The position numbers and the translations under genes were made by a program. Source: Planctomycetota bacterium (lineage in GTDB: Bacteria; Planctomycetota; Planctomycetia; Planctomycetales; Planctomycetaceae). Taken from it: a stretch of 64,000 nt of DNA. The stretch is taken from NCBI GenBank assembly GCA_003388505.1, contig QQVO01000007.1, forward strand, positions 124,001 through 188,000, in the 5' to 3' direction. Positions within the stretch are counted from its first letter, which is position 1. The number at the start of each line of letters is the position of its first letter. A model generated the notes under the pieces. That model saw only the letters and a program-made list of their open reading frames with translations, searched no databases and was not told the origin of the DNA. Positions 37,078-51,525 of the stretch are shown piece by piece.

Positions 37078-38562
37078 ATGGTCGAGCAGAAAACGCACTC
37101 CACATCCGCTCCTGCGTTCGAGATCGCAGAGGAGGGAAGCATCAAGCAGGCGCTGATGTCCCCGCTGCTCTGGGGCGGGCTGGCGACCTTCGGGTTCTAT
37201 CAACTGATCCCGCTGCTGCCGATGCACCGCGAGTTGGCACAACGGTACTTTTGTGGGCACCCGCTGGAGTACGTACAGACCGCGATGTTTTTTGTCGGCA
37301 TGGCGCTGCTCGCGAGCCGGATGATTGGTCTGCGGCGCGAACGAAGCGCCCTGGCCGAATGCCGGCTGGCGACGCCGCAGTCTCTGGAGGAAGGCGAAAT
37401 CGACGCGTGCAGTGAACTTGATTCCGCCGTGAGTCGGCTTCCCGCCCGCTTGCACAACACGCAGATTGCCAGGCGACTGAGGGACCTGAGCGCCTACCTG
37501 CGGCATCGCCAGTCAGCCGGGGGCGTGGAAGAACAGATGCGCTATCTCGACCAGGCAGCCGCCGATCGAGTGTATGAGAGTTATTCCCTACTGCAGACGA
37601 TCAACTGGGCCGTGCCGATCATCGGATTTCTCGGCACAGTGATGGGCATCACCCTTGCGATCGCCAATCTGAACGTCGATTCCGGTCAACTGGACGACTC
37701 GCTCAACCATGTCACGGTCGCTCTCGCGGTTGCGTTCGATACGACCGCGCTGGCTCTCTCGTATTCGATCGTGCTCGTTTTCGGTTATTTCTTCGTCAAG
37801 AAGGCGGAGGGAGGCGTGCTGACCGAAGTTGAAGAATTCGGCCAGAGATGCGTCCTTCCATTGATTCCGCAGGCGCATTCGGCCGGAAGCCCGCTGCTCG
37901 AAGCCGAGACCGAAGCGGCACAGAAACTGATAGACCGGACCGAGTCGCTGATCGAGGGGCAGACTCGAATGTGGCAGGAATCGGTCGAGTCGTTGCGGAC
38001 GCGTTGGACCGGAACGCTCGAAGACCAGCAGGCCCGGCTTGCCGGAGCGCTGACCAAGGGAACGCGGCAGACTCTGAGCGACCACGCCGCCCAACTCGCG
38101 GAACTTCGACAACAACTGGCGGGCACGCTCGGGGAAATTGCGACGGAATTGTCGCGCCAGATGGAGCGTTCCAGTCGTGTGCGGCACGAACAGGACGAGT
38201 CGTTGACGCGCCGTATGGAAACATTCGCCGATGATTTGTCACGATCGCTGGCGAGCGCACAGGCCTCGGCGGACGAGCGCAACGAGGCGATGATCGCCGC
38301 CATGACGGAACAGATCACCGGGTGGCAGCAACAATTGCAGCATGCCACGAACGCGGTTGAGGCGCAACTCGCCGGATTGACGGCTCAAACGCAGGCACTG
38401 ACGGATCTGGTTGAGCAGGAGGGGGGGATTGCTGCGCTGCAGAGCCGACTGACGGACAATCTCGAGGCGTTGCGGACGGCGGAGACGTTCGAACAGACGA
38501 TGCACAGTCTCAGCGCGGCGGTGCACATGTTGACCGTCCACGCGCGACCGAAGGCGGCCTGA
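37078..38562 (+). CDS. MotA/TolQ/ExbB-family stator-like membrane protein with long coiled-coil tail
   Basis: A 494-residue inner-membrane protein. Membrane helices are at about residues 27-48, 66-84, 173-198 and 213-241. The last two carry the proton-channel family motifs AVPIIGFLGTVMGITLAIANL and VTVALAVAFDTTALALSYSIVLVFG. A long Gln/Glu/Arg-rich coiled coil follows (about 260-490), much longer than in ExbB or TolQ. In known systems such proteins form a pentamer around ExbD/MotB-type helices and use the proton gradient. The next two genes, 40 and 86 bases apart, encode just such single-span partners, so the three genes probably make one machine. No TonB, TolA or flagellar gene is present. 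Confidence 0.82.
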   Translation: MVEQKTHSTSAPAFEIAEEGSIKQALMSPLLWGGLATFGFYQLIPLLPMHRELAQRYFCGHPLEYVQTAMFFVGMALLASRMIGLRRERSALAECRLATPQSLEEGEIDACSELDSAVSRLPARLHNTQIARRLRDLSAYLRHRQSAGGVEEQMRYLDQAAADRVYESYSLLQTINWAVPIIGFLGTVMGITLAIANLNVDSGQLDDSLNHVTVALAVAFDTTALALSYSIVLVFGYFFVKKAEGGVLTEVEEFGQRCVLPLIPQAHSAGSPLLEAETEAAQKLIDRTESLIEGQTRMWQESVESLRTRWTGTLEDQQARLAGALTKGTRQTLSDHAAQLAELRQQLAGTLGEIATELSRQMERSSRVRHEQDESLTRRMETFADDLSRSLASAQASADERNEAMIAAMTEQITGWQQQLQHATNAVEAQLAGLTAQTQALTDLVEQEGGIAALQSRLTDNLEALRTAETFEQTMHSLSAAVHMLTVHARPKAA

Positions 38563-38602
38563 CGCAGGCTTCAGCGTGTTTCACTCGGGGGGGTGAGTAC
38601 TT

Positions 38603-40537
38603 ATGGCGAGCAGTCGCCGACAATCGGCGCCATCGGTCTCGTTGTTTCCATTTCTGGCGGTGATGGTCTGCGCGATGGGAGCGCTGATCTTCCTGCTGGT
38701 GATCACAACGCGACGGATTCGCGAGCAGACGGTCGCCGGAGCGCAACTTGACGCCCGGATTGTGGATCAATCGGTCGAGCCGGATTCGGCTGTGCCGCCT
38801 GTTCCGGCTCCGGTAATCGCCCCGTCTGAGACCAGGCCGCCAATCGAGCCGGCGCCCCCTGAACCGGAGCAGCCCTGGCTGCCGCTCCCGGAACGGGCCG
38901 AGGAGTCGCCGCCGCAACCGGACCGCGCCGTCGAGGCGGCTGCGTTGGCAGAGGCGATCCGGAAGGAATGGCAAGCAACGGTTGACGCACTGAGTAAGGA
39001 ACTGGACGGGCTGCTTGATACGGCCTCGGCTTATTCGGATGCAACCGATCGTGAACTGGCCGAACTGGCAGAAACCGAAGCTCTCATCGCGAAACTTGAA
39101 CGTCGCGAACAGGAACTCCGGACTGAGCGCGAAACGATTGATGAAGTCGACCGCGCGACTGAACAACGGTTGGCGGAACTGACCAGCGAGATTCGAACGA
39201 CGGAAAACGAACTGAAGGAAGCCCGGGAGGCGCAGGCCGCCGCCGAAACCCGATATCGGATTCTGCCCTACGACGGCCGGCTCGGCACGGTGCGGAGGCC
39301 GATCATCATCGAATGTACCGAGACAGGGCTGACGTTCGCATCCGAAGAGATCACACTCACGCCGGAACAACTGAACGGGTTCCCACCCATTCGAAATCCA
39401 CTTCGCGCCGGCGCGGACGCGCTCATCAACTATTGGACGGCGAAGGACTTTCAAGAGAGGCTGAACGGAGAATCGGCAGGTCAGCCTTATGTGCTGCTGG
39501 TCGTCAGGCCGCGCGGGACCGTGGCCTACTACGTTGCCCGACGACTGCTGGAGTCGATGAATTCTCCGTTCGGCTATGAACTGGTCAAGCAGGAGCAGGA
39601 GTTCGAGTGGCCGGAAACGACTCCCGCAGCGGTCGAACTCTGCCGCACCGCGGTCGACGCTGTGCTTCGAGAACGGGATCGATTGCTGGCGCAGACTTCC
39701 TCCGGCAGGCTCCCCGTCGCGCGGCAATTGCAGTTCGACGATGGAGAAGGGCGTTTCTACCTCGAAGAGGTTGAACGGTTGAGGGGAGGGGGAAATACGG
39801 TCCACTTCGGGGGCCGCCGGTGGGATCGCAACGCTGGAACGACGGGGGGACCGAGAGTCGTTGAGCCGGCGACTCGGCCGCGCGTGATTGAGTTTCCCGA
39901 CTATGCATCACGGTTAAGTCAAGCGGACTCGGCAACCGGTCTGGCGGGGGAACCGGCATCGAAAGCCTACGATTCCCGAGCCGAACTGTACGACGAACAG
40001 GTCCGACAGGAAGCAATCGTTCCGCGAGCGGCTCCGAACCAGACCGACTGGGAGAGCGCCGGCCGCGAAACCGGAGATGGCGACTCTTCCAGGCGCGCGA
40101 ATCGCGCCGGCCCGGAGTCATCGAGAGGCGGATCGGCGAATCGCGGTTCGCCGCAGCCGACACGAAGAACCGGCGCCGGTAGTCCGGATTCCGCGAACCT
40201 TGATCCCGAATCTCCGCCTTTCAGCCGGGCTTCTCGCAGCGACAAGATCGGTCTGGAACGCGACATCCTGATCCGGGTCAATGATTCCGCAGTGATTGTG
40301 GAGAATGAAACTCCGATTCAGATCACAAGCGGAATATCTCGCGAACAACTGCAGTATGAACTGGCCGTCACGCTGGACGGCCTTGTCAAGAGTTGGGGGG
40401 AACCTCCGCGGGGATTCGACTGGATTCCGACCGTGGAACTCGAGGTTCTGCCCGGTGGAAATCAGTATCAGGATCGCCTGATGGCCGTGGTCACCGGCTG
40501 GGGACTCAAGTCCAGGGTGGAACACGTCCTCGAATGA
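38603..40537 (+). CDS. ExbD-like single-span protein lacking the membrane aspartate
   Basis: A 644-residue protein anchored by one N-terminal helix (residues about 14-34, SLFPFLAVMVCAMGALIFLL). The stretch PFLAVM aligns with E. coli ExbD PFIDVM, which places Ala19 where the proton-carrying Asp should be. After a Pro/Glu-rich linker come a coiled coil (about 110-215) and a globular part (YVLLVVRPRGTVAYYVARRLLE) reminiscent of the ExbD periplasmic fold. A low-complexity Arg/Ser/Gly region (about 440-550) and a final beta-rich domain follow. It lies between the ExbB-like gene and a second ExbD-like gene that keeps the Asp. Function is inferred from context. Confidence 0.65.
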   Translation: MASSRRQSAPSVSLFPFLAVMVCAMGALIFLLVITTRRIREQTVAGAQLDARIVDQSVEPDSAVPPVPAPVIAPSETRPPIEPAPPEPEQPWLPLPERAEESPPQPDRAVEAAALAEAIRKEWQATVDALSKELDGLLDTASAYSDATDRELAELAETEALIAKLERREQELRTERETIDEVDRATEQRLAELTSEIRTTENELKEAREAQAAAETRYRILPYDGRLGTVRRPIIIECTETGLTFASEEITLTPEQLNGFPPIRNPLRAGADALINYWTAKDFQERLNGESAGQPYVLLVVRPRGTVAYYVARRLLESMNSPFGYELVKQEQEFEWPETTPAAVELCRTAVDAVLRERDRLLAQTSSGRLPVARQLQFDDGEGRFYLEEVERLRGGGNTVHFGGRRWDRNAGTTGGPRVVEPATRPRVIEFPDYASRLSQADSATGLAGEPASKAYDSRAELYDEQVRQEAIVPRAAPNQTDWESAGRETGDGDSSRRANRAGPESSRGGSANRGSPQPTRRTGAGSPDSANLDPESPPFSRASRSDKIGLERDILIRVNDSAVIVENETPIQITSGISREQLQYELAVTLDGLVKSWGEPPRGFDWIPTVELEVLPGGNQYQDRLMAVVTGWGLKSRVEHVLE

Positions 40538-40623
40538 CCGCGCCTGTCATTCCGCCTGGTCATATTGCACGACGGTGAAACCCCGTCCCCCAGAACCTCC
40601 AGTCCGCCGAAACTGAGCACAAA

Positions 40624-41823
40624 ATGTCAAAGTCGTCGAAACGGGAGTCGCTCGAATTCGGTTCCGATTCGTTTCTGGACATCGTTGCGAATGTCGTTGG
40701 CATTCTGATTATCTTGATCGTCATCGCCGGTTTGCGCGTCAGCCGCGCTCCGATTGGGGAGGCCCCGGTCGATCCGCCAGGACGTTCCGGGGCGACATCC
40801 GTGGAATTCCAGTTCACCCCGCCGTTGGACCTCGTGGTTCTCGGCCCCGAATCGCCACCTGTTGTTGAAGAGTCCGAGCTGGTCGACGTGGGCGCCCTCA
40901 AAGATCCGGCGATGCCCAGCGACCTCTTCGAAACGGCTTCGTCGGGTGAAGTTCTCGACGAACCGCCCCTCGGTCCGCCGGAGCCTCCTCGCGAACTGGT
41001 GGCGCTTGCAGATCGTCTGAAGTCGGAGATTTCTGCCGCCGCTGATGATCGTGACTGGCAGCGGCAAAGATTGGCGCATGTTCGCGAACGTGCTGCATCA
41101 ACGCGTGATCGGCTTCCGCGTCTTCAACAGACCGTCGAGCAGGAGGCCGAGGCCCTCGCGCAGGCAAAGCTGGCAGCGGTCGAACGAGACGAGGACCGGA
41201 ATCGCGCGGAAAGGCGCTTGCAGGAGATGCGGTCCGCCGTCCGCCTCACGCGGGACCAGCCGCCCACGACGCAAGTGCTCAACCATCGCGTAACGCCCGT
41301 CGGAAGAGCAGTTGAAGGTTCGGAGGTCCATTTCCGACTGGCGGCCGGGCGCGTCTCCGTCGTCCCTATTCAGTCGTTGACCGTATCGCTCAAGGACCGG
41401 ATCGAGCGCAACAAGGACATGCTGTTTCGTCTCGAGCGGTACGAGGGAACCGTCGGTCCGCTGAACGGGTACCTGTTGCATTACACGGTGCAACGACAGC
41501 AACTCTCAGTGCTCGAAGAGTTGCGAAACGGCGGTCCGGTATTGCGGATCGGGCTCTCCTATTACGAAATTGAACCGCTGCCAGGCGCGCCGACCGAATC
41601 GGCGGAAGAGGCGTTGGCTGCAGGGTCGCGATTCCGGGAGGCGCTCCAGTTGGCCGGTGCGAGTTCGACGTTGACCTTCTGGATCTATCCGGACAGTTTC
41701 GACCTGCATCAACGTCTGCAGGAATACGCCCACTCGATCGGCTTCGACGTGGCCGCGAGACCACTTCCGCAGGGCGTTCCGATCGCGGGATCGCCCAACG
41801 GATCCCGGTCGGTGGCCCAGTAA
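40624..41823 (+). CDS. ExbD-like single-span protein with conserved membrane aspartate
   Basis: A 399-residue protein with one N-terminal membrane helix (residues about 18-37). The motif FLDIVANVVGILIILIVI places Asp19 at the position of the proton-carrying Asp25 of ExbD. A linker and a coiled coil (about 115-210) follow, then a C-terminal domain with TLTFWIYPDSFDLHQRLQEY that resembles the ExbD periplasmic fold. It is the third gene of the stator-like cassette. The gene ends 28 bases before the end of the convergent giant gene. The substrate or target of the machine is unknown. Confidence 0.7.
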   Translation: MSKSSKRESLEFGSDSFLDIVANVVGILIILIVIAGLRVSRAPIGEAPVDPPGRSGATSVEFQFTPPLDLVVLGPESPPVVEESELVDVGALKDPAMPSDLFETASSGEVLDEPPLGPPEPPRELVALADRLKSEISAAADDRDWQRQRLAHVRERAASTRDRLPRLQQTVEQEAEALAQAKLAAVERDEDRNRAERRLQEMRSAVRLTRDQPPTTQVLNHRVTPVGRAVEGSEVHFRLAAGRVSVVPIQSLTVSLKDRIERNKDMLFRLERYEGTVGPLNGYLLHYTVQRQQLSVLEELRNGGPVLRIGLSYYEIEPLPGAPTESAEEALAAGSRFREALQLAGASSTLTFWIYPDSFDLHQRLQEYAHSIGFDVAARPLPQGVPIAGSPNGSRSVAQ

Positions 41824-41851: not shown

Positions 41852-44800
41852 TCACGACCCGGCTGCGGCTGACCCGACATTCCGCCGCCACGTGAGACAT
41901 TGCAGGACGGCAGCCCATAGCGCGATCAACAGTCCCAACGTTCCCGCGTGGAACCACATCCACCACAAAACTCCCGCAACAAACATTCCCACATACGACC
42001 CGTTGACCGGAATCAATCGACCGGATGGCATCCGTCTGCGCAGAATGATCATCGCGATTCCTGCGATCAGGCAGCACATGATGATTCCCGCGGCGAAGAA
42101 CACCCGCCCGAGAGAGCGATCGATCACCAGAAACTGCTGTGAAGGCTTCGAATCGCCGGCCCGCAGCAGGACGACACGATCGTCGCCCATTGCGGTGGCG
42201 TACGGTGAACTCACCGTCGATGCCGGCGGGGACGCTCCGGGTGAAGATCGACTCTCATCGCCGCCGACCCGCTCGCGGATCAACGCGATCCGGCTGCGCA
42301 GCGCTTTTTCATGGTCGCTCGACTCAGCGGACCGGATCACCGTCAATGAGTCGTCCAACAGCTTCATGACCGCAGCCGAGGCATTGTCCTTGTCGGGGCG
42401 CCAGTCCTCTCCCAGGGCGTTCAGCAGCGACTCCGCACGAATCCACGCGTACTCACGCGGTGTCAGCATTGGTTTTCCTCCGATGCGGACCAGTTTCTGA
42501 GATTGCGGCGGCACATGGATCACGAGGCGACGAGACGGCGGGCCGCCAGTCGTTGCGGGAATCGCATCGTCGGTTTCCTCCGGTCCGCCTGAAGTCCCCT
42601 GGTTCGTACGCCAATCGATCTCAGCAACGCAAACTCTTGCGCCGTGCGTGTGCTGGAGCGGAATCGCAATGGTCGATTCGTCAATCTTTGAAAAACGTGT
42701 GTCGTTGCCATCAATGCGACTGCCGACGATCTCGACACCGCTGGGAACTCGAATCTCCAACTTGCTTGTTGAATCAGGACTCGCGATGTAAGCGGTCAAG
42801 AGCCCGTAGCGGCCGCCGTCGGTTGCGTGCCAGACGATCGATTCCTCAAGCGCCGTGACGTAACCGGGTTCCTGTGCTTCGTTGCGGATGAGCACCAGCG
42901 GTTCGGATTGCTCCGATCTCCGGTAGATGCGTGAGTCCGGCGATGAGGCGATCTGCCGCAGGCGGGCTCGCAGAAGCGGATTCAGGTCCGCCTCGGCGAC
43001 CGCTTCGGTTCCGCCCTCACCTGGCGAGTATTCACAATCAACGGGAACGATCAGCAAATGATCGCCGACCTTCATGTCGAGCAGATCGATGCGGGGGATC
43101 GCGAGTTCGGGAGCGGTCGGATCCAGGGGCCCGAATGTCAGACGTCCATGCAGCGGTTCCTCCGGTTTCTGCCTGACGAACTCGATTCGCACATCGCCGT
43201 CGGCAGTCCTGGTTCTTGACGCTTCCGATTCGGATGACGCGTCTTCGAGACGGCTCACATCATCGCGCGACACGCCGACGATGAAGCGATCAAGGTGGGC
43301 GTCCGATTCATGCGGAAAGAATCGCATTTCCTGTCGCCACCGGCCGTCCGCAGGGACAAGAAAAGTGACGATGTCGACCGGAAGAGAATTCGTCTTCGGT
43401 ACTGCGCGAAACGCAACGGGGACCGGACCTGACTCAGTGGAGAACCTGCGTATCGACGGTCCAGTCGAAGACTCCTGGCTGTCAGTTTCGACACTGGAGG
43501 CGTCGATTTCGGTGCGGTCGGAGGAATACAAAGTGACGAGGTGTCCGGGCGACGCAATCACGACTTCGGACGCAAGGACTTGCGCCGCTGGAAACTGGAG
43601 GGCTGGAAGCGGTGTGAACTCGTCCATCTCGAACGACGACCAGCCGTCGATTGTGATCTCATACCGACCCGGTTGCCCGTCCCTCAGGTGCACGAGAAGT
43701 TTGTCCTCGGAGCGTGACCAGTCGAGCAGACGGTCGACCTGATTCTGAACGACCATGACCGAGTCAACGCGAACGGCGCCTGGCAACCGGAACTCGTGCC
43801 GGAATGCCGCGGCATCTTTCACATCGACGGTCACCTCCGCGTGCCACTCCAGACGATGCGACCTTAACCGGACGCTGTTCTCAATCCGTGCTTCACGCAC
43901 AGGTTGGATGCGGTCGACCAGGACCGGTATGGCGGAAGCGTGATGCAGCAGAAAGGCTTCGGCGGGTTCCGGCCAACCGGTTTCCTCGGGAGCAACCGAT
44001 CCAAACAACTGTGGAAGGACTTCGTCCACTGCTTCTGAAAGTGATGCAGTCCGGTCCACCTGCAGGGTCAACCCGCGCGCCGCGACCAGCCCCACGTGAT
44101 GTTGCACTTGTGCGCTGTCGCCCAGAAGGGGAATCGGGGGAATGACGATCTGCCGCTCGCGGTGTTCCGGCGGAAACGCAAAGTCGAGATGAACCAGCGA
44201 ACCAGCTTGCAGCGGCACATCGAACTCGAGCGACATTAACGTCTCGCCGGTCTGGATCTGCCGGGTGGAGAATCGTCGCAAGCGGTCGCCCGCGGCTTCC
44301 CGGACGACCGCGGTCGCGGGGAGACGGAGGTGCAGGGTTCGCCGGGAAGAAACGACCGACCCCGGACTGGACTCGAGCAGCGTGAGACGTGTCCGGACGC
44401 GTAGTTTCAGTGGATGCACTTCGACCAGGGAAACGGCTTCCGCCTTGACGTCCGTCGACGGTTCGTCACGTTCCGTGTCTGCTGCCGATGGCCGGCTCCG
44501 AACCCGGAGTGTATCGGTAAATCCGATCGACCAGTACGACATCTCAGCCGTCGCATCCTGAGGGGGAGCGAGGCGAACGGGCGATGGTTCAATCCTGCGG
44601 TCGGAGATGCTCTGAGGCAATATGAGGCGGGAGTCGGCGATTCTCGGCAGGCCGATCGTCCACTCGCTGTGATCTTCAATGGCGATCGGAGTAAACCAGA
44701 CCTCGACGGTGGCGTTCCGGTAGGCATTCGATTCAGCATCCTCCTGTGACGCGCCATCGGCGGTTGCACGTCGAGGAGCGATTTCAACGAGATAGGACTG

Positions 44801-47800
44801 CGAGTCCGCCGCCGGGCGCAACACCGCTGGCTGGCCGTCAACGCGACAGTCGTCAGCGCTCTCGAAACTGACGCCACGCAGCGCGAGTGAGACTCTCACG
44901 GGGGCGTCTGGTTTGAGCAGCAGGACGCTGAATTGTGCGTGAATTTTGCCGCGCGTGGGATCGGTAAGCGTGTAGCTTGCCGTCGAAAGAAGGTAGGCGG
45001 GCCGGGGATGCTCACGGTTTCTCCACTCGAGGAAATCCGGCCACCAGCGTTCGTGAAGGTATCCGCGGTCCCCTTCCGGAAAATCAATCGGCTCACCGCT
45101 GGACTCGTCAGGCGGCAGGAGCACGTCGACGTCGTCCCAGCGCGGTTGCGACTCAACGCTGTCGGAGGCCGTTGTCGCCGCGGGCGTGGTTTCCTGCGCC
45201 AAGCCCGCGGTCTGCTGGGACATCCCAACTGCCAACAGAACCGCGCTCGCGATCTGCGATGCCCGAGCGATGCTGGAGTGCGTTCCGGTCCGGGGCCCGA
45301 GTCTGGAAAGCAGATCCCGCCGCACAAGCCATTTGCGGGGAGTGAGCGAACCGATGATCGCACCGACGAAGGCCCCGCCGGCAATGGGAGCGTAATAAAC
45401 GGGAGCGAGAACGGCGATCAGCAGGCAGGCCACGACAAGGAACGCCGAAATGGCGCCGCTTCGTTTGGCTTGCAACCACCGCAATCCGGCGATCGCCGTC
45501 ATGACGGTAAACATGGCGAGCCACGCAAGAGAGCGTGAGCGATCGCGGTTCCACAGTTCAAGCTTCCCATCCGCAGGGAAGGCGACCGTTTGCACGATGA
45601 TCGGGATTGAACTGTTCGGCGACGAAGATCGAGGAGACTGTTCGTCGCGCCCCCAGAGCAACGACCAATGCGATCCGTCGAACGGATTGAATCGAGCTTT
45701 CCTCGCATCGCGGGCGAGGGGCCCGAAAACTCTTTCCATCCATGAAAGTTCGCGGGCGCCCTCCCAGACGGCAGAATCGACGGGACAGCGAGTCAACTCT
45801 GTGGAAGCGGGAAGGTCGAGTCGCCAGGTGAATTGCTGCACATCCCGATCTAACTCCGGGAAGACGATGGGAACCGTGCGTCGCAACCGGGCGCCGTCGT
45901 CGGAAGCGGGCGTGCGATAGCGGACTTCGAATTCCCGCACGCCGCCGGGCAACGAAGGCAATTCGTACGTGTCAGTTGCCTTGAGCACCGCCTGAGTCAC
46001 CCCAGCCGCCCGTACGCTGTCAAGCACGGCGGGATGATCGAGTCGAAAACGGACCTGCTGTCCCGCCAGATCGCCTGAGGATACGAACCGCGCCTGATGC
46101 AGATGCCACTTGCCGGAATCGCCGGTGATCGACGACGCGAGCCACAGCTCGATCCGGGGCGGAGTGCTTCTCGCCGACGAACGCAGGTCGCTTTCATCGG
46201 GGTCCGAAGACGCCGGAGCGCTCCGCGGCGCATTATCCGACCCCTGGGTTTCCGCTTCGATCAAGTGCGTGCCGGCGGGCTTCGGCGGCCCGTCCAGCCA
46301 GATCAGATCGTCGTCGCCTCGAATCCCGAGCAACGAGGCAAGGTCCGACCAATCCGCGCCGGCGTCACTTGTGCCGGACGCCGTATTCCAGCCATCCGCA
46401 CGCTGCCATTCCGCCGAGAGCCCCCCTCGAATGACGGTCCGCGACTGCCAGTCTGCAAAGTTCAGCGGCGTCAGTGCATCCGGTTCATCGAATCTCCGCT
46501 GAGACAAACGGGCGGAAACGACGAGTCGACAGGGGGAATTCGGGGTCAGCGCTCTGCCAAGGCTGATCAGGAGACGCGATCCGTTTCCCTGACGGGTCTG
46601 GCGCCAACCGGCGATCGGCCTTTCATCGGCACCGCCGGCGGGCTCAACATCGGTGACCGTCCAGTGAGGTGGAACGTCAAAAGTCAGCGCGAACGTTGAA
46701 CCGGACCGGTTGCGGAGGTCGACTGCAGCCGTTCCGGTGGTGGGCTTGCCGGAGAAATCCAGGAATTGCAGCAGCCGACCGCTTAGCTCGGGTCGCCTGC
46801 GGCTCGCGCGAACAATGAGTTCACCGTCCTCACGAATATCCTCAAACGACCAGACTGTTCCCGTCAGATCCGCGTCCACATTCGTCTCTCGCAAAGCGAC
46901 TTCACGGAGTCGCTCGAGCCTCATGGGGCTCGAAAACTCGATGGCCCTGCGACCGCTGATCAAGGTGCTCCGCTCCAGCACAATCCGCGGCGCGGGCCAC
47001 TCCTCGTCTTCCGGATACACGTATTCTCCCATGATTCGAATCGGACCGATTTTCCCCGGCGGCAACGAGGGAAGTGGAACGACCAGGCGATTGAAACCTC
47101 CGGCCGGTTCGCTTCGCCCAGTGAGCCCCGCCCCCCCCAAGGTCACTCGCAAGTCCGACAATTGAAGGGGAACCTGAAAGACCAGGGAATCAGGGACGGA
47201 ATCGTAGGCATGCACAACGAAATCCGCCTGAACGCGACAACGATCGACGAGGACCGCGTATCGCAACGTTCGCTCAGCCGCGAGTGTCGGCGCCGCCCGC
47301 TCGACGGCAGGCTCCAGAGTCAGAATCCCGCGGCTTTGCCGTCCGAGATCGATCGTCCACAACCGCTCGTCTGCATCGCCACCGCCATCGACGACACCAA
47401 CATGCCCGGCGTGGCAGGCGAGTTGCCATCGATTCGGAATCCGCAATTCCATCCGCGAAGATTCGCAATGCGGCAGCAGAAACTCGAACTCGATCGAATC
47501 AGCGACAACCCGGCCGGCAAGCGACCAGTTTCCCGTGACTAGTCGGTCGTTGTCATCAGCGAACAGCAAGACGCGCCCGTCGCGAGAGGTGCCCCAGATC
47601 GCCGGCTGACCATTCCAGCCCAGGTCGGACACGGAGCCGCGTACGTCTCCCAACTGCATCCAGGGTGAGGCGTCCTGCGGTTTCGAAATCTCCGCCTCGA
47701 GCTGGCCAGACAGCGCCCCTGCGTCGGTCATCGCGCCGCGAAAGACGGCCCGGCTGAAGACGGTTCGCGGACTGGACCGGTCATCCTCCGGGTCGACGAC

Positions 47801-48004
47801 GTTCAGAAACTCCTGCAATTCGTCGATCGGGACAGCCGCCCATCGATCGGACGGTGGTGATTGAGTGCGGCCGTCTAGAAGATAGGCGCGACGAATTCGC
47901 TTGTCGCTCGACTGTGCGACGGTCGACCGAGAGAACAACGAGCACAGCGCCAGCCATGCCATTGCCAGGCAAAGAAGGTTCCCGGCCACGGACTTCCCGC
48001 GCAT
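41852..48004 (-). CDS. Giant secreted membrane-anchored protein, probable two-module fusion
   Basis: From the ATG at 48004 (MRGKSVAGNLLCLAMAWLAL, a clear signal peptide) the product has 2050 residues; ATG 48025 is an alternative. Module 1 (about 1-905) is a beta-rich extracytoplasmic region ending in membrane helices at about 825-895. Module 2 starts with a second signal-peptide-like stretch (IASAVLLAVGMSQQTAGLAQ, about 912-935), continues as beta-rich domains and ends with helices near 1965-1985 and 2005-2041. No enzymatic motif was recognised. It lies 32 bases downstream of the related 1162-residue gene, so both are probably expressed together, and it converges with the stator-like cassette. 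Confidence 0.7.
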   Translation of the reverse strand: MRGKSVAGNLLCLAMAWLALCSLFSRSTVAQSSDKRIRRAYLLDGRTQSPPSDRWAAVPIDELQEFLNVVDPEDDRSSPRTVFSRAVFRGAMTDAGALSGQLEAEISKPQDASPWMQLGDVRGSVSDLGWNGQPAIWGTSRDGRVLLFADDNDRLVTGNWSLAGRVVADSIEFEFLLPHCESSRMELRIPNRWQLACHAGHVGVVDGGGDADERLWTIDLGRQSRGILTLEPAVERAAPTLAAERTLRYAVLVDRCRVQADFVVHAYDSVPDSLVFQVPLQLSDLRVTLGGAGLTGRSEPAGGFNRLVVPLPSLPPGKIGPIRIMGEYVYPEDEEWPAPRIVLERSTLISGRRAIEFSSPMRLERLREVALRETNVDADLTGTVWSFEDIREDGELIVRASRRRPELSGRLLQFLDFSGKPTTGTAAVDLRNRSGSTFALTFDVPPHWTVTDVEPAGGADERPIAGWRQTRQGNGSRLLISLGRALTPNSPCRLVVSARLSQRRFDEPDALTPLNFADWQSRTVIRGGLSAEWQRADGWNTASGTSDAGADWSDLASLLGIRGDDDLIWLDGPPKPAGTHLIEAETQGSDNAPRSAPASSDPDESDLRSSARSTPPRIELWLASSITGDSGKWHLHQARFVSSGDLAGQQVRFRLDHPAVLDSVRAAGVTQAVLKATDTYELPSLPGGVREFEVRYRTPASDDGARLRRTVPIVFPELDRDVQQFTWRLDLPASTELTRCPVDSAVWEGARELSWMERVFGPLARDARKARFNPFDGSHWSLLWGRDEQSPRSSSPNSSIPIIVQTVAFPADGKLELWNRDRSRSLAWLAMFTVMTAIAGLRWLQAKRSGAISAFLVVACLLIAVLAPVYYAPIAGGAFVGAIIGSLTPRKWLVRRDLLSRLGPRTGTHSSIARASQIASAVLLAVGMSQQTAGLAQETTPAATTASDSVESQPRWDDVDVLLPPDESSGEPIDFPEGDRGYLHERWWPDFLEWRNREHPRPAYLLSTASYTLTDPTRGKIHAQFSVLLLKPDAPVRVSLALRGVSFESADDCRVDGQPAVLRPAADSQSYLVEIAPRRATADGASQEDAESNAYRNATVEVWFTPIAIEDHSEWTIGLPRIADSRLILPQSISDRRIEPSPVRLAPPQDATAEMSYWSIGFTDTLRVRSRPSAADTERDEPSTDVKAEAVSLVEVHPLKLRVRTRLTLLESSPGSVVSSRRTLHLRLPATAVVREAAGDRLRRFSTRQIQTGETLMSLEFDVPLQAGSLVHLDFAFPPEHRERQIVIPPIPLLGDSAQVQHHVGLVAARGLTLQVDRTASLSEAVDEVLPQLFGSVAPEETGWPEPAEAFLLHHASAIPVLVDRIQPVREARIENSVRLRSHRLEWHAEVTVDVKDAAAFRHEFRLPGAVRVDSVMVVQNQVDRLLDWSRSEDKLLVHLRDGQPGRYEITIDGWSSFEMDEFTPLPALQFPAAQVLASEVVIASPGHLVTLYSSDRTEIDASSVETDSQESSTGPSIRRFSTESGPVPVAFRAVPKTNSLPVDIVTFLVPADGRWRQEMRFFPHESDAHLDRFIVGVSRDDVSRLEDASSESEASRTRTADGDVRIEFVRQKPEEPLHGRLTFGPLDPTAPELAIPRIDLLDMKVGDHLLIVPVDCEYSPGEGGTEAVAEADLNPLLRARLRQIASSPDSRIYRRSEQSEPLVLIRNEAQEPGYVTALEESIVWHATDGGRYGLLTAYIASPDSTSKLEIRVPSGVEIVGSRIDGNDTRFSKIDESTIAIPLQHTHGARVCVAEIDWRTNQGTSGGPEETDDAIPATTGGPPSRRLVIHVPPQSQKLVRIGGKPMLTPREYAWIRAESLLNALGEDWRPDKDNASAAVMKLLDDSLTVIRSAESSDHEKALRSRIALIRERVGGDESRSSPGASPPASTVSSPYATAMGDDRVVLLRAGDSKPSQQFLVIDRSLGRVFFAAGIIMCCLIAGIAMIILRRRMPSGRLIPVNGSYVGMFVAGVLWWMWFHAGTLGLLIALWAAVLQCLTWRRNVGSAAAGS

Positions 48005-48036
48005 CGTGCAGACGCCCCGCAGCATGACTCGGCCGA

Positions 48037-51000
48037 TCACGACGCGCCCCCGGATTCCGACGGCGCGGAAGGCTGGTACACCGCCGTTGGCGCCTGACTC
48101 CGTGGAGCGGCGGAGGAGGATCCGTATACCGAGGATCGCTGTTCCCGTCCAACTGCGGAGGGAGGGGGTTCCACGGGTGTCTCTCTCAGTCGACGGCGCG
48201 GGCGGCGGCGGGCGGCGGTGTCGAAAGTTGTCGCCACCAGCGCCAACAACAAGCCGAGCAGCGCCGGTTGCAGCAGAAGTTGCATCAGCTCCAGCCGCCA
48301 CAAGCTGGCCAGCGAGAACACGAAGCCCAACACGAGGATCGAGAAAACGTTTCGTGTCGTGGGGATCCTGCCGAATACGAAACCCAACAACAGCGTGACT
48401 CCGGCTCCAATCAGGACGATGAACGTCTGAGCCATCGAACCGAATTGCGCCGCCTGCAGACTCCCGACCGCACGATAGGCGTACACGTTTCCTCCCTGCG
48501 AAACGGGAGGGGCTCCTGAGCCGGACGCTATGAAGTTGGCGCGGCGGTCGCGGTACGCGCGCGTGGGACGCCGCATCCAGACGGCGACCGTGCGTTCCCA
48601 GGTGTATTGGGGCACCATTCCGTCGGGCGATTCAAACAACTGATGACCAAGCGGCAGCCCGATCTCCCAGATCGTCTCTTCGATCCAGACCCTTTGCGGA
48701 AACCTGGGAAACTGCACTGTTCGTTGCGAGATGAAATTCAGGACGCCGTGACTTTGTGAGCGAAATCTGACTGAGAGGCGTCCCGAGAGCGCCTCGAGTT
48801 CCCCGTCCTCGATGGCCAGGAGATACTGGCCCGGTTCTCCGGTATAGGGTCGAACTTCACGATCGCTGGTCAGTTTGCGGCCGTTCCAGTAGAAGTCCGC
48901 CGCGCCTGTGTCTTGGGGCAACATGATCAGCAACCGTGCGGGCGCCTCTCGGACGTCGTAGTCGGCGTAGGTCGTCGTTTGGCCCTCGTCTCCAATCAAT
49001 GTGCGCAGGAACGCGGTTTCGATCGTGTATTGCTGCGGCACGTTGACGATGGATTCATCCCGCGACAGCCGTACGAACTCGCGCGGCGTCCGTGTCGACC
49101 AGGCTTCGCCGCTGGTTCGTGTCAACTCGGGCTGCCATCCGGTTTCCTTTGCGTCAAGGCGAAGCACGTCTTCGTCGACGATCTGCAGCACGGTGCTGCC
49201 GTATTCGGCGTCAATCGACGGGAGGATCGGGACGTCGAAACTCACCGTATGTTCATCAGATCGTCCGGGAACCGGCAACAGGTAGTCGATAAAGATGCTG
49301 AAATCACCGTGCCGCGGTTCATCCAGATTGACCTTCAGATGTCCCTCAACGATCTCCGCCTGGAGCGGCGTCCCGTCTCTCAACCGGAAACGGGGGCCGA
49401 TCTCCGAATAGTCGTCTCCCAACGCAATAGAATCGGAATTGATCACGCTGCTGAGCGATTCGGGACGATCGAACAGAACCGACTCGATGCGGCCGTAGGC
49501 CACTGAAAAGGCGACCTCCTGGATCACCCGCAGCCGGGCGGGACGCAGGTCCGTGACTGCCACCATCACATTCGCCTCGATCGATCGCTGGTGGCGAGTG
49601 ACGTCGATGTTCAACGTCTGGTCCGGAGAATCGATCCTGTACAGCGTGATCGGCGAACTCGCCGGCTCCGTGACTTCTTCCGGAAAGCCGGGCGCCAACC
49701 GGGCATCGGCCGGCGGTGCTGGCAGCGGACCGCTTTCACCGACGACGTCAAACTCGAAGTCAATCGGTCCGGCGACCGCCAGTGTCCTCGACCGCTGCGA
49801 AACTCCGTTGAGCAGCGGAAGAGGGCCGGCAAATCCGTCAGCGTCTGATGCAGACGTTCTTTCAAAGTGCAGCAGGAATGACAAACGGCCCGTGCAGGGT
49901 TCATCGATCCGGACCGACAACAGATCCTGCGAGTCGTCGTCGATTCCTGTCTCGAGGATCGCTTCGTGCTCTGTCGACGACGTTTGTTCACCGACGTGAA
50001 CCGGAATGGTCGTTCGTGCGGGTCGCCATCCATCCTCCCGATGCCCCGGCCAGGTCAACTCGACGCGGTCGACGCTGCCGCTCAACACTTCGATTTGCAC
50101 AGCCGCGTAGAGGTCCGCCTTCCCTTCGTTGAGTCGGATCAGATAGTCCGCCGTGCCGTCAGTCTCTGCATCGATCTGCGAAAACCGGAGGTCGAGATCG
50201 ATGGGCTGATGCGAGAATTTGAATGCGTAGGCGATGTTTGCGGCCCCGGGCCGGTCGTCCGGTGGGTCCACTTGCGTGACGGGGGAGTCTTCGTAGTTCA
50301 CCCAATCCAGGAAGTATCCCGGAATCGCTTCGATTTCGATGCTTCCCGACTGACTCCCGGCGTCCGCAATCTCAAGCCCGTCCAGCCGAATGACCTCGCC
50401 GTCGTCTGGAAACGGACGAGACAGTTCCCATTGAAGTTCCACGCGGTCCTGGACATCGTCAGTCAGTGAGACCTTGATCCAGCCTGGTTCGCCAGAAACG
50501 CCCTCAAACCGCAAAGGTTGCGAGGAGTCTGACTGCATTTGACGGACTGCTTCGATCTCGAAACCCTCGGGAATGCGGACCCTCAGGTGGTCGACGTCCG
50601 CCCAGGCGATCCGACACTCCTGGAGAGCGGAAACTTGCAAACGATTGCTGCTCCGAGTCACTCGCAAGAGAGTCGTGACCGCTCCAATCGTCGGTGCATC
50701 GTCGCGTCGAATTCGCCAGGAGACGTCCCACCGGATCCCGGAAACTTCGCATTCAAGACTCAACCCCTTGCTTTCCGTCGCATTCGTGGAGCTGATCGTC
50801 GTGCCCTGACCCGCCGTTCCCCGAACGGCGCGAGCGTCGTCGACGCGCAGGTTGGCAATCGCGCGAAATCCGTTCGGGAGTTCGGGAATCGTCAACTGCA
50901 ACTGTCGACCGGTCGCCGTGCGGCGAACCGGCACGCGCAATTGGAATGTCAACTGGTGCCGCCCTTTGCCGCGGAACACCCAGCGTTGGCCCGATCCCTG

Positions 51001-51525
51001 CCGTTCGGCGCCCTCTGGAGCAGCATCGCCAGGTCCCTCGTATCGCGAACTCAGCAGGCTGGCCTGATCGAAACCGAGCGGCAACACGTACCAGTCGCCG
51101 GTCGCCCGCGTCAATTCAACGTCCACAGCAGCCGTCACTTCAGCGGTGTCGCCTTGAACCACACCGTTCAGCTCCAGCCTCGAGATATAAATCGCCTTGG
51201 GACGATCGGCCAAATGCTCGGCGTCCGCTTCGAAAATCTCGGTGAATGTTTCGGCGCGTCGATTCTCGTTGTCCGACTGCGGAAGGCGACCCTCATCGGT
51301 TGGGGGAACGGCGTCACTCTCGGCATTGGCTCGATCGGTCGACGAGGACGCGCTTTCTCTCGCAGAGGGGCTGTTTCCATCGTCAGACCAAGCCCGACCG
51401 GGAGTCACAGCAGACAAGCCAAAGGCAACGGAAGTCGCTGCCAGAATGATCAGAACGCGCAGCACGTTCGGAAATCCCTTCGGCGGGCGTGGTCGATGAC
51501 TGTCCCGGAGATTACACAACAACAC
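48037..51525 (-). CDS. Large secreted membrane-anchored protein, beta-rich
   Basis: A protein of up to 1162 residues. The GTG at 51465, preceded by AAGGGA, would give a clean signal peptide (VLRVLIILAATSVAFGLSAV) and 1142 residues; the ATG at 51525 is the other option. The bulk is beta-rich, with segments such as YISRLELNGVVQGDTAEVTA and GRHQLTFQLRVPVRRTATGR. Several membrane helices at about 1022-1110 (FIVLIGAGVTLLLGFVFG and following) are succeeded by a basic, Pro/Ser-rich tail. The architecture (signal peptide, long beta-rich part, C-terminal helix cluster) is the same as each half of the downstream 2050-residue protein. Function unknown. Confidence 0.7.
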   Translation of the reverse strand: MLLCNLRDSHRPRPPKGFPNVLRVLIILAATSVAFGLSAVTPGRAWSDDGNSPSARESASSSTDRANAESDAVPPTDEGRLPQSDNENRRAETFTEIFEADAEHLADRPKAIYISRLELNGVVQGDTAEVTAAVDVELTRATGDWYVLPLGFDQASLLSSRYEGPGDAAPEGAERQGSGQRWVFRGKGRHQLTFQLRVPVRRTATGRQLQLTIPELPNGFRAIANLRVDDARAVRGTAGQGTTISSTNATESKGLSLECEVSGIRWDVSWRIRRDDAPTIGAVTTLLRVTRSSNRLQVSALQECRIAWADVDHLRVRIPEGFEIEAVRQMQSDSSQPLRFEGVSGEPGWIKVSLTDDVQDRVELQWELSRPFPDDGEVIRLDGLEIADAGSQSGSIEIEAIPGYFLDWVNYEDSPVTQVDPPDDRPGAANIAYAFKFSHQPIDLDLRFSQIDAETDGTADYLIRLNEGKADLYAAVQIEVLSGSVDRVELTWPGHREDGWRPARTTIPVHVGEQTSSTEHEAILETGIDDDSQDLLSVRIDEPCTGRLSFLLHFERTSASDADGFAGPLPLLNGVSQRSRTLAVAGPIDFEFDVVGESGPLPAPPADARLAPGFPEEVTEPASSPITLYRIDSPDQTLNIDVTRHQRSIEANVMVAVTDLRPARLRVIQEVAFSVAYGRIESVLFDRPESLSSVINSDSIALGDDYSEIGPRFRLRDGTPLQAEIVEGHLKVNLDEPRHGDFSIFIDYLLPVPGRSDEHTVSFDVPILPSIDAEYGSTVLQIVDEDVLRLDAKETGWQPELTRTSGEAWSTRTPREFVRLSRDESIVNVPQQYTIETAFLRTLIGDEGQTTTYADYDVREAPARLLIMLPQDTGAADFYWNGRKLTSDREVRPYTGEPGQYLLAIEDGELEALSGRLSVRFRSQSHGVLNFISQRTVQFPRFPQRVWIEETIWEIGLPLGHQLFESPDGMVPQYTWERTVAVWMRRPTRAYRDRRANFIASGSGAPPVSQGGNVYAYRAVGSLQAAQFGSMAQTFIVLIGAGVTLLLGFVFGRIPTTRNVFSILVLGFVFSLASLWRLELMQLLLQPALLGLLLALVATTFDTAARRRPRRRLRETPVEPPPSAVGREQRSSVYGSSSAAPRSQAPTAVYQPSAPSESGGAS

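Follow-up and report, generated by a model that had tools for sequence, protein, structure and literature searches.

An ExbB-like ring protein with two unequal single-span partners in planctomycetes: a candidate motor with one anchor aspartate

A three-gene cassette was found on a 64,000-nucleotide stretch of a Planctomycetota bacterium genome (contig QQVO01000007.1, positions 124,001 to 188,000; this whole stretch is called the window). The cassette encodes P1, a ring protein homologous to ExbB, and two paralogous single-span proteins, P2 and P3. P3 carries the anchor Asp of ExbD-type partners and P2 mostly does not, the periplasmic stalks of P2 and P3 are matched in length, and the genes are coupled. 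We consider it fairly probable that the cassette encodes a motor driven by the proton motive force, of the 5:2 type of ExbB-ExbD and MotA-MotB, with a heterodimeric central pair. More tentatively, we propose a 5:1:1 (P1:P2:P3) engine with one site, occurring as two paralogous trios (Ala/Asp and Ser/Asp) and evolvable to a two-Asp form via a ring swap (Asp221 to Asn) plus an Asp in P2.

The three genes all lie on the plus strand. P1, an ExbB/ZorA-like ring protein of 494 amino acids (aa) identified from the list of open reading frames (ORFs) and Pfam, occupies 37078..38562; P2, a single-span protein of 644 aa in which the anchor Asp is absent, occupies 38603..40537; and P3, a single-span protein of 399 aa in which the anchor Asp is present, occupies 40624..41823. 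The gaps between P1 and P2 and between P2 and P3 are 40 and 86 bases, respectively. A sequence-only reading of this DNA had described an ExbB-like gene followed by two single-span partners, and three ORFs were indeed found at these places on the same strand, P1 scoring over the Pfam cut-off. Presence of the trio in other planctomycetes had been set beforehand as a check, and P2 and P3 were found in 53 and 52 of 59 relatives, respectively. P2 was present in 37/37 genomes of the window's family, its own genome counted, in 7/7, 3/3, 4/4, 1/1 and 1/1 genomes of groups f2, f4, f5, f6 and f7, respectively, and in 0/6 of group f3. When genomes were drawn evenly across the phylum, P3 was detected at E 1e-8 in 21 of 294: 16 of the same family, 4 others in the class, and 1 outside the class with a weak match. 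G175, a complete genome of the same family, gave no match in this draw, in which six candidates were scored per genome. A scan of GTDB genomes with the P3 alignment gave at least 435 relatives; the 80 retained were all titled planctomycete. Among 100 loci longer than 8 kb, window included, P3, P2 and P1 were present in 98, 94 and 80, respectively, and the next commonest family in 34. Of 120 distinct labelled loci, 80 had P1 upstream in the same orientation and 7 had it downstream; in 2 it was on the opposite strand, and in the other 31, many of which end at a contig edge, it was unseen.

P1 matched Pfam PF01618 (MotA_ExbB) with 45.6 bits (cut-off 22.9, E 7.4e-12). It carries the pore motifs GFLGTVMG and AFDTT, the latter at residues 219-223 (37732..37746, plus strand), where ring Asp221 adjoins the pore Thr. 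Among solved structures, the P1 profile matched ZorA proteins of Zorya type I/II best (8vvn_C, E 5e-7; 8vvi_F, E 8.7e-7), and a PDB sequence search with P1 alone gave no match. The NCBIfam ZorA models were matched weakly, with 35.5 bits against a cut-off of 100. In P1 proteins beside Ala-type P2, T187 was present in 67/68 and T222 in 66/68; we read these residues as the equivalents of ExbB Thr148 and Thr181, which are named in passages of PMC12905483. Thr stands at both places in ZorA 8vvn and at the first place alone in 8vvi. Asp221 was kept in 65/68 P1 proteins beside Ala-type P2 and in 5/5 beside Thr-type P2. The C-terminal tail of P1, about 225 residues long, is taken as cytoplasmic and helical by analogy with ZorA; its last residue, A494, was invariant across 40 rows.

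The anchors of P2 and P3 differ at position 19, as the sequence-only reading had noticed: the motif is PFLAVM in P2, with codon gcg for Ala, and SFLDIV in P3, with codon gac for Asp. The P2 anchor helix, LFPFLAVMVCAMGALIFLLVITTRRIR, spans residues 14-40 (38642..38722, plus strand; Ala19 codon 38657-38659) and the P3 anchor helix spans residues 14-41 (40663..40746, plus strand; Asp19 codon 40678-40680). For the counts, 140 loci were reduced to 121 distinct ones (118 first-trio and 3 second-trio loci, window excluded). Loci counted as distinct when their P2 or P3 sequences were non-identical over the final 150 residues; near relatives are still in the set. Loci cut by a contig end and eight f2 loci from seven genomes, whose anchors were unalignable, were left out as unread. 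Position 19 of first-trio P3 was Asp in 101/101 distinct loci read, the residue expected of an ExbD anchor, and D19, N23 and G26 of P3 were each invariant in 104/104 distinct loci read, three of them second-trio. Among the 93 distinct loci in which position 19 of first-trio P2 was read, 77 had Ala, 5 had Thr and 11 had Asp, so that P2 was without Asp in 82/93. The expectation, set beforehand, that P2 would be non-Asp throughout did not hold, with these 11 Asp-type proteins and in addition that of genome G008. Loci from the whole-protein search alone, which is free of pattern bias, gave Asp in 42/42 P3 read, and Ala, Thr and Asp in 39, 3 and 2 P2, respectively; 14 further loci of this set were unreadable, eight being the f2 loci with other anchors. 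Loci from the GTDB scan, which were not selected by P2, gave Ala, Thr and Asp in 52, 2 and 11 P2, respectively. The scan patterns derive from P3 and favour no P2 residue, one of the three including the P3 Asp itself, and both split counts were taken before duplicates were removed. F15, P16, L21 and G26 were unvarying in 85 non-acidic P2 rows (three second-trio), and therefore the Ala-type P2 helix is not decayed.

P2 and P3 are, by sequence comparison, paralogs with their anchors in register. Their profiles matched each other with probability 98.6 and E 6.7e-16, coiled coil included, with Asp19 facing Ala19, and the 31-column anchor alone gave probability 83 and E 8.9e-6. In the AlphaFold2 models, whose mean predicted local distance difference test (pLDDT) values were 75 for P2 and 82 for P3, each protein was predicted to have one membrane helix at its N-terminal end, followed by a disordered linker, then a long helix and alpha/beta structure. 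The long helices cover residues 108-213 of P2 (106 residues; 38924..39241, plus strand) and 123-210 of P3 (88 residues; 40990..41253, plus strand) and are taken as coiled-coil stalks; both stalk profiles matched coiled-coil proteins, in keeping with the long coiled-coil extensions suggested earlier. Beyond the stalk, P2 has a first periplasmic domain at residues 232-412 (39296..39838, plus strand), and a C-terminal domain at residues 541-644 (40223..40534, plus strand) with a predicted ExbD periplasmic domain fold. Residues 229-331 are homologous to the C-terminal domain (hhalign probability 96.6, E 5.9e-10, 89 columns), which suggests two ExbD-like heads in P2. The periplasmic alpha/beta domain of P3 covers residues 232-399 and has a conserved C-terminal end (41317..41820, plus strand). 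When P2 residues 552-641 were searched with VIA-align, E. coli ExbD took ranks 1, 2 and 4 (Z 7.9, 7.8 and 7.3), the top row being 8p9r_A (Z 7.9, root-mean-square deviation 2.6, 71/74 residues). The same list held ribosomal (Z 7.3) and kinase (7.1) folds, the ExbD rows thus lying within the range of common arrangements, and we take the modelled fold as support, not proof. We call P2 and P3 ExbD-like by anchor and context, plus fold for P2.

The stalk, measured from anchor to periplasmic domain, comprised 140-290 residues over the loci, and the stalk lengths of P2 and P3 covaried (Spearman 0.78, 89 loci). Independent contrasts on the P2 tree gave r 0.82 (86 contrasts, 0/10000 permutations as high), and 0.74 without the three largest. 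Control contrasts gave 0.07 for the P2 stalk versus the rest of P2, and 0.04 and -0.02 for the P1 tail versus the stalks. The highest control, the P3 stalk versus the rest of P2, gave 0.19 by contrasts; its rank correlation was 0.24 (p 0.02), and without the tree correction it reached 0.37. An earlier measure, which counted prolines, showed no correlation (Spearman -0.15, 21 of 23 pattern-caught rows); it was replaced by the profile-mapped anchor-to-domain distance over the 89 loci. With start codons picked by rule, the P2 and P3 genes overlapped in 63/102 loci, in 54 of them by exactly 4 nucleotides, and the P1 and P2 genes in 10/75. Together, the covariation of the stalks and the gene overlap suggest that P2 and P3 pair.

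A second paralogous trio with the same gene order was found in the window's own genome and in others, its ring protein mostly having a zinc-ribbon-like start. Beside 15 second-trio ring proteins, the P2 counterpart (P2b) was found 14 times and the P3 counterpart (P3b) 13 times, with Ser in 14/14 and Asp in 13/13, respectively. At the Asp221 place the second-trio ring had Asp in 12/15 and Asn in 3; with 14/14 P2b having Ser, this residue does not follow the partner strictly. The second-trio loci were L050 (window's genome, contig C35), L070, L089, L190 and L193-L202, and P2b is short. Whole protein lengths from the anchor in the second trio were almost constant over nine genomes (339-363 and 253-261 aa). 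First-trio stalks in these genomes ranged over 142-214, which speaks, on this small set, against a species-wide periplasm width as the cause of the matched stalks. In these nine genomes the first-trio stalks and second-trio lengths were uncorrelated, a weak test at n=9, and the P2 and P3 stalks correlated at 0.56 (p 0.11). Elsewhere in the window's genome there are seven other ExbB-type matches and nine Pfam-ExbD matches, eight of the nine ordinary ExbDs sitting in four ExbB-ExbD-ExbD sets. As a control, all nine of these Pfam-ExbD proteins carry the anchor Asp, seven within TP[ML][IV]D and two within [MT]GD.

From these data we infer how the machine might work. Five P1 would form the ring, and its pore would be filled by a single helix each from P2 and P3. 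The ion-carrying Asp would come from P3 alone, the Ala helix of P2 acting as a passive bearing that holds extra periplasmic heads, and ring Asp221 might have a share in the proton relay. The coiled coils of P2 and P3, parallel and of matched length, would make a single stalk crossing the periplasm towards a target. With one site in the core, a turn of the engine would comprise no more than five strokes of 72 degrees, in place of ten alternating 36-degree strokes; alternatively, the engine would swing as a two-state lever.

Asp-type P2 proteins mostly occur beside another ring protein. In ten Asp-type cassettes with an adjoining ring gene, nine of the ring proteins formed a separate clade, P1' (support 100), with Asn for Asp221 and His for Gly190, each in 9/9, and in 8/9 the P1' gene was found either downstream or on the opposite strand. 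The P1' clade (AFNTT, mostly GTVxHFG) stands next to P2-P3 in some genomes and alone in others (L165, L143, L156, L115, L130, L133-L135, L172, L188, L189, L191 and L090). In genome G008 an Asp-type P2 lies next to a P1 lacking both pore Thr residues, and a P1' is found elsewhere in the genome. A P2 tree of 92 rows, from which the anchor was excluded and in which many forks are weak, showed Asp nested among Ala rows and required six changes to explain it. When P2 type was compared in seven independent pairs that differed in ring type, five were for an association, none against and two unchanged (p 0.06), which is only suggestive of a link between Asp-type P2 and the P1' ring.

The earlier proposal of a built-in heterodimer with one proton site is favoured indirectly by the conservation of the trio, the constant Asp of P3, the mostly non-acidic P2, the paralogy in register, the stalk match and the gene overlap. 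Several results weigh against this proposal and the engine set out above. Asp was present in 11/93 P2, and therefore the pore tolerates two Asp; the association of Asp with the P1' ring reached only the p value just given. At L163 an Asp-type P2 occurs with P1, and in the lineage of G034, G059, G060 and G061 and in that of G062, an Ala-type P2 occurs where a lone P1', recognised by the motifs AFNTT and GTVxHFG, is the only ring found. In seven f2 genomes P2 and P3 are kept with neither anchor motif and with no adjoining P1, and therefore their periplasmic parts may work without the motor. Matched stalks could also be expected of two homodimers spanning to one layer, and in the window itself the P2 and P3 genes do not overlap. 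Finally, P2 and P3 of the window gave no match with Pfam ExbD (PF02472) at E up to 1; with 40 P2 and 41 P3 members, ExbD was not among the 25 families listed of the 26 matched at E 0.01; and the fold search with the P3 domain gave no ExbD row but weak rows of mixed type (best Z 6.2). P2 and P3 anchor and domain profiles likewise gave no match with five of the genome's nine ordinary ExbDs, and Foldseek searches with both models gave no match with E below 0.001.

An unlikely but still serious alternative is a symmetric motor with an accessory, in which two P3 fill the P1 ring and P2 is bound at its edge as an accessory or transducer like TonB or TolA, or is separate. According to passages in PMC12215075 and PMC12204202, TonB and TolA attach to the exterior of the ring, and the two ExbD-like heads and long disordered stretch of P2 would suit a transducer. 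Also in its favour, Asp is neither universal nor always missing in P2. However, the P2 anchor is paralogous to that of P3 and in register with it, and the two stalks are matched. Moreover, on each of the roughly six occasions when position 19 of P2 departed from a small residue, the new residue was precisely Asp, as would suit a helix inside the pore but not one at the edge. The membrane helix of TonB and TolA has an SHLS motif with an essential His, as described in part of PMC12204202; no His was present among the residues shown at P2 positions 14-36 in 96 loci.

We give little credence to a displacement of the ion site to the ring, in which P1 Asp221, five per ring, would be the working acid and Asp19 of P3 and Ala19 of P2 its counterpart; such a motor would depart altogether from the ExbD-Asp mechanism. 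In favour of this, the residue is Asp in 70/73 P1 beside Ala- or Thr-type P2 and Asn in 9/9 P1' beside Asp-type P2, and it is Leu or Trp at the same place in two ZorA. Yet Asp19 of P3 never varies (101/101 read), Asp221 is missing in three Ala-type cassettes, and the second-trio rings have both Asp and Asn beside a constant Ser in P2b.

It is very improbable that two motors share one ring, with P3 homodimers and P2 homodimers exchanging in the pore and the P2 pair inactive or regulatory. Matched stalks would let either pair reach the same target, and stator exchange is known in flagella, to judge by the title of PMC7595845, but the frequent P2-P3 gene overlap suggests equal synthesis, and the retention of an Asp-free P2 pair over several families is hard to account for. 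Meaningless drift in a decaying duplicated ExbD deserves next to no belief: paired ExbDs are common in the genome, but the second trio keeps the same kind of asymmetry, and the anchor positions of P2 that are unvarying over 85 rows contradict decay.

The f2 loci in which the periplasmic parts of P2 and P3 are retained were L067, L072, L075, L078, L079, L081, L083 and L088. These f2 genomes hold another ring protein elsewhere, which is ExbB-like, has a Glu in the pore helix and carries GFIGTVEGIS in 7/7 (L205-L211). In 6/7 its gene is followed by that of a single-span protein of 240-315 aa with the anchor EDSFVAVVVTKLTGALLF, in which the usual place of the Asp is non-Asp and a Lys lies inside the helix. 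The Glu ring and Lys anchor possibly form a charge-swapped motor.

Around the cassette, a conserved protein of about 1300 aa without a Pfam match is encoded divergently upstream in 33/100 loci, in 23 of them at most 600 bases away; the 34th match among these 100 loci was placed otherwise. Examples are L111:1433-5404 and L153:50-4126. No PADLOC match was found for the two copies examined, and the matches listed for three copies included neither vWA nor TPR. In the window's genome this protein is encoded on another contig (C14:114299-118210), and therefore it indicates no stalk target. In the window, two very long overlapping ORFs lie on the minus strand at 41852-48301 (2149 aa) and 48037-51525 (1162 aa), the nearer one converging on the cassette; neither gave a match over a curated cut-off, and both were absent from the 25 commonest neighbour families.

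Compared with the 5:2 motors ExbB-ExbD, TolQ-TolR and MotA-MotB, the cassette shares the ring family, the anchor Asp of P3 and Thr in both pore helices, and the last domain of P2 may have the fold of ExbD. It differs in having two dissimilar core chains with mostly one Asp between them, stalks of 140-290 residues, and a ring whose second pore helix contains an Asp. ZorA of Zorya is like P1 in being its best solved relative and in its long C-terminal extension. However, ZorAB has one partner where the cassette has two, and P2 was present in all 37 genomes of the family, unlike a defence island. A Zorya defence system was rejected on the ZorA score far below the cut-off and the near-universal presence, ZorC and ZorD not having been sought.

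The sequence-only reading went too far in stating that known machines have two identical chains, as unlike partners have been published for AglR (with AglQ and AglS) and as tolR-like pairs in the Planctomycetes-Verrucomicrobia-Chlamydiae (PVC) group, as described in parts of PMC9389320 and PMC12204202, respectively. In the gliding system of Myxococcus xanthus, AglR-AglQ-AglS likewise comprises one MotA-type protein and two MotB/TolR-type partners. According to the relevant passages of PMC9389320, whether AglQ and AglS form hetero- or homodimers is not known, and both are reported with the conserved Asp, in contrast to the planctomycete P2, which mostly lacks it, and to the long, matched stalks of P2 and P3. 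The heterologous tolR-like and TPH-vWA pairs of the PVC group, partly planctomycete, combine a tolQ-like gene with two unlike partners; the text of PMC12204202 stresses the conserved Asp for each monomer of the TPH-vWA pairs, and its section 8 does not mention Asp for the tolR-like pairs. Some of the PVC tolR-like clusters described there could be related to the P1-P2-P3 cassette; unlike the TPH-vWA pairs, P1-P3 had no vWA or TPR match listed. As far as these passages go, unlike partner pairs are already known, with Asp in the chains wherever it is mentioned, and a conserved pair with one Asp is described in none of them. No one-Asp or heterodimeric stator was recognised among the matches listed from open-licence PMC text, and the main text of the Planctopirus limnophila essential-gene paper (PMC10632474) gave no match to the terms ExbB, ExbD, TolQ, MotA, 'proton channel' or 'biopolymer'.

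Rotary models, as outlined in passages of PMC12215075, assume 36 degrees per proton with alternation between two essential Asp, and in one model described in part of PMC10659934 rotation occurs only with both Asp protonated. With a one-Asp core the alternating 36-degree scheme would be impossible, leaving five strokes of 72 degrees or a lever-like swing as the expected motion. If the one-site 5:1:1 engine is right, two-Asp alternation would be unnecessary for a 5:2-type motor, and the device would have a fixed polarity. A one-Asp core and its close two-Asp relatives would furthermore form a natural experiment on the alternation assumption, and the heterodimer would permit each core chain to be altered separately, which is impossible in homodimers. 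The cassette also points to an as yet unrecognised trans-envelope machine in one planctomycete family, P2 having been detected in 37/37 of the genomes sampled there.

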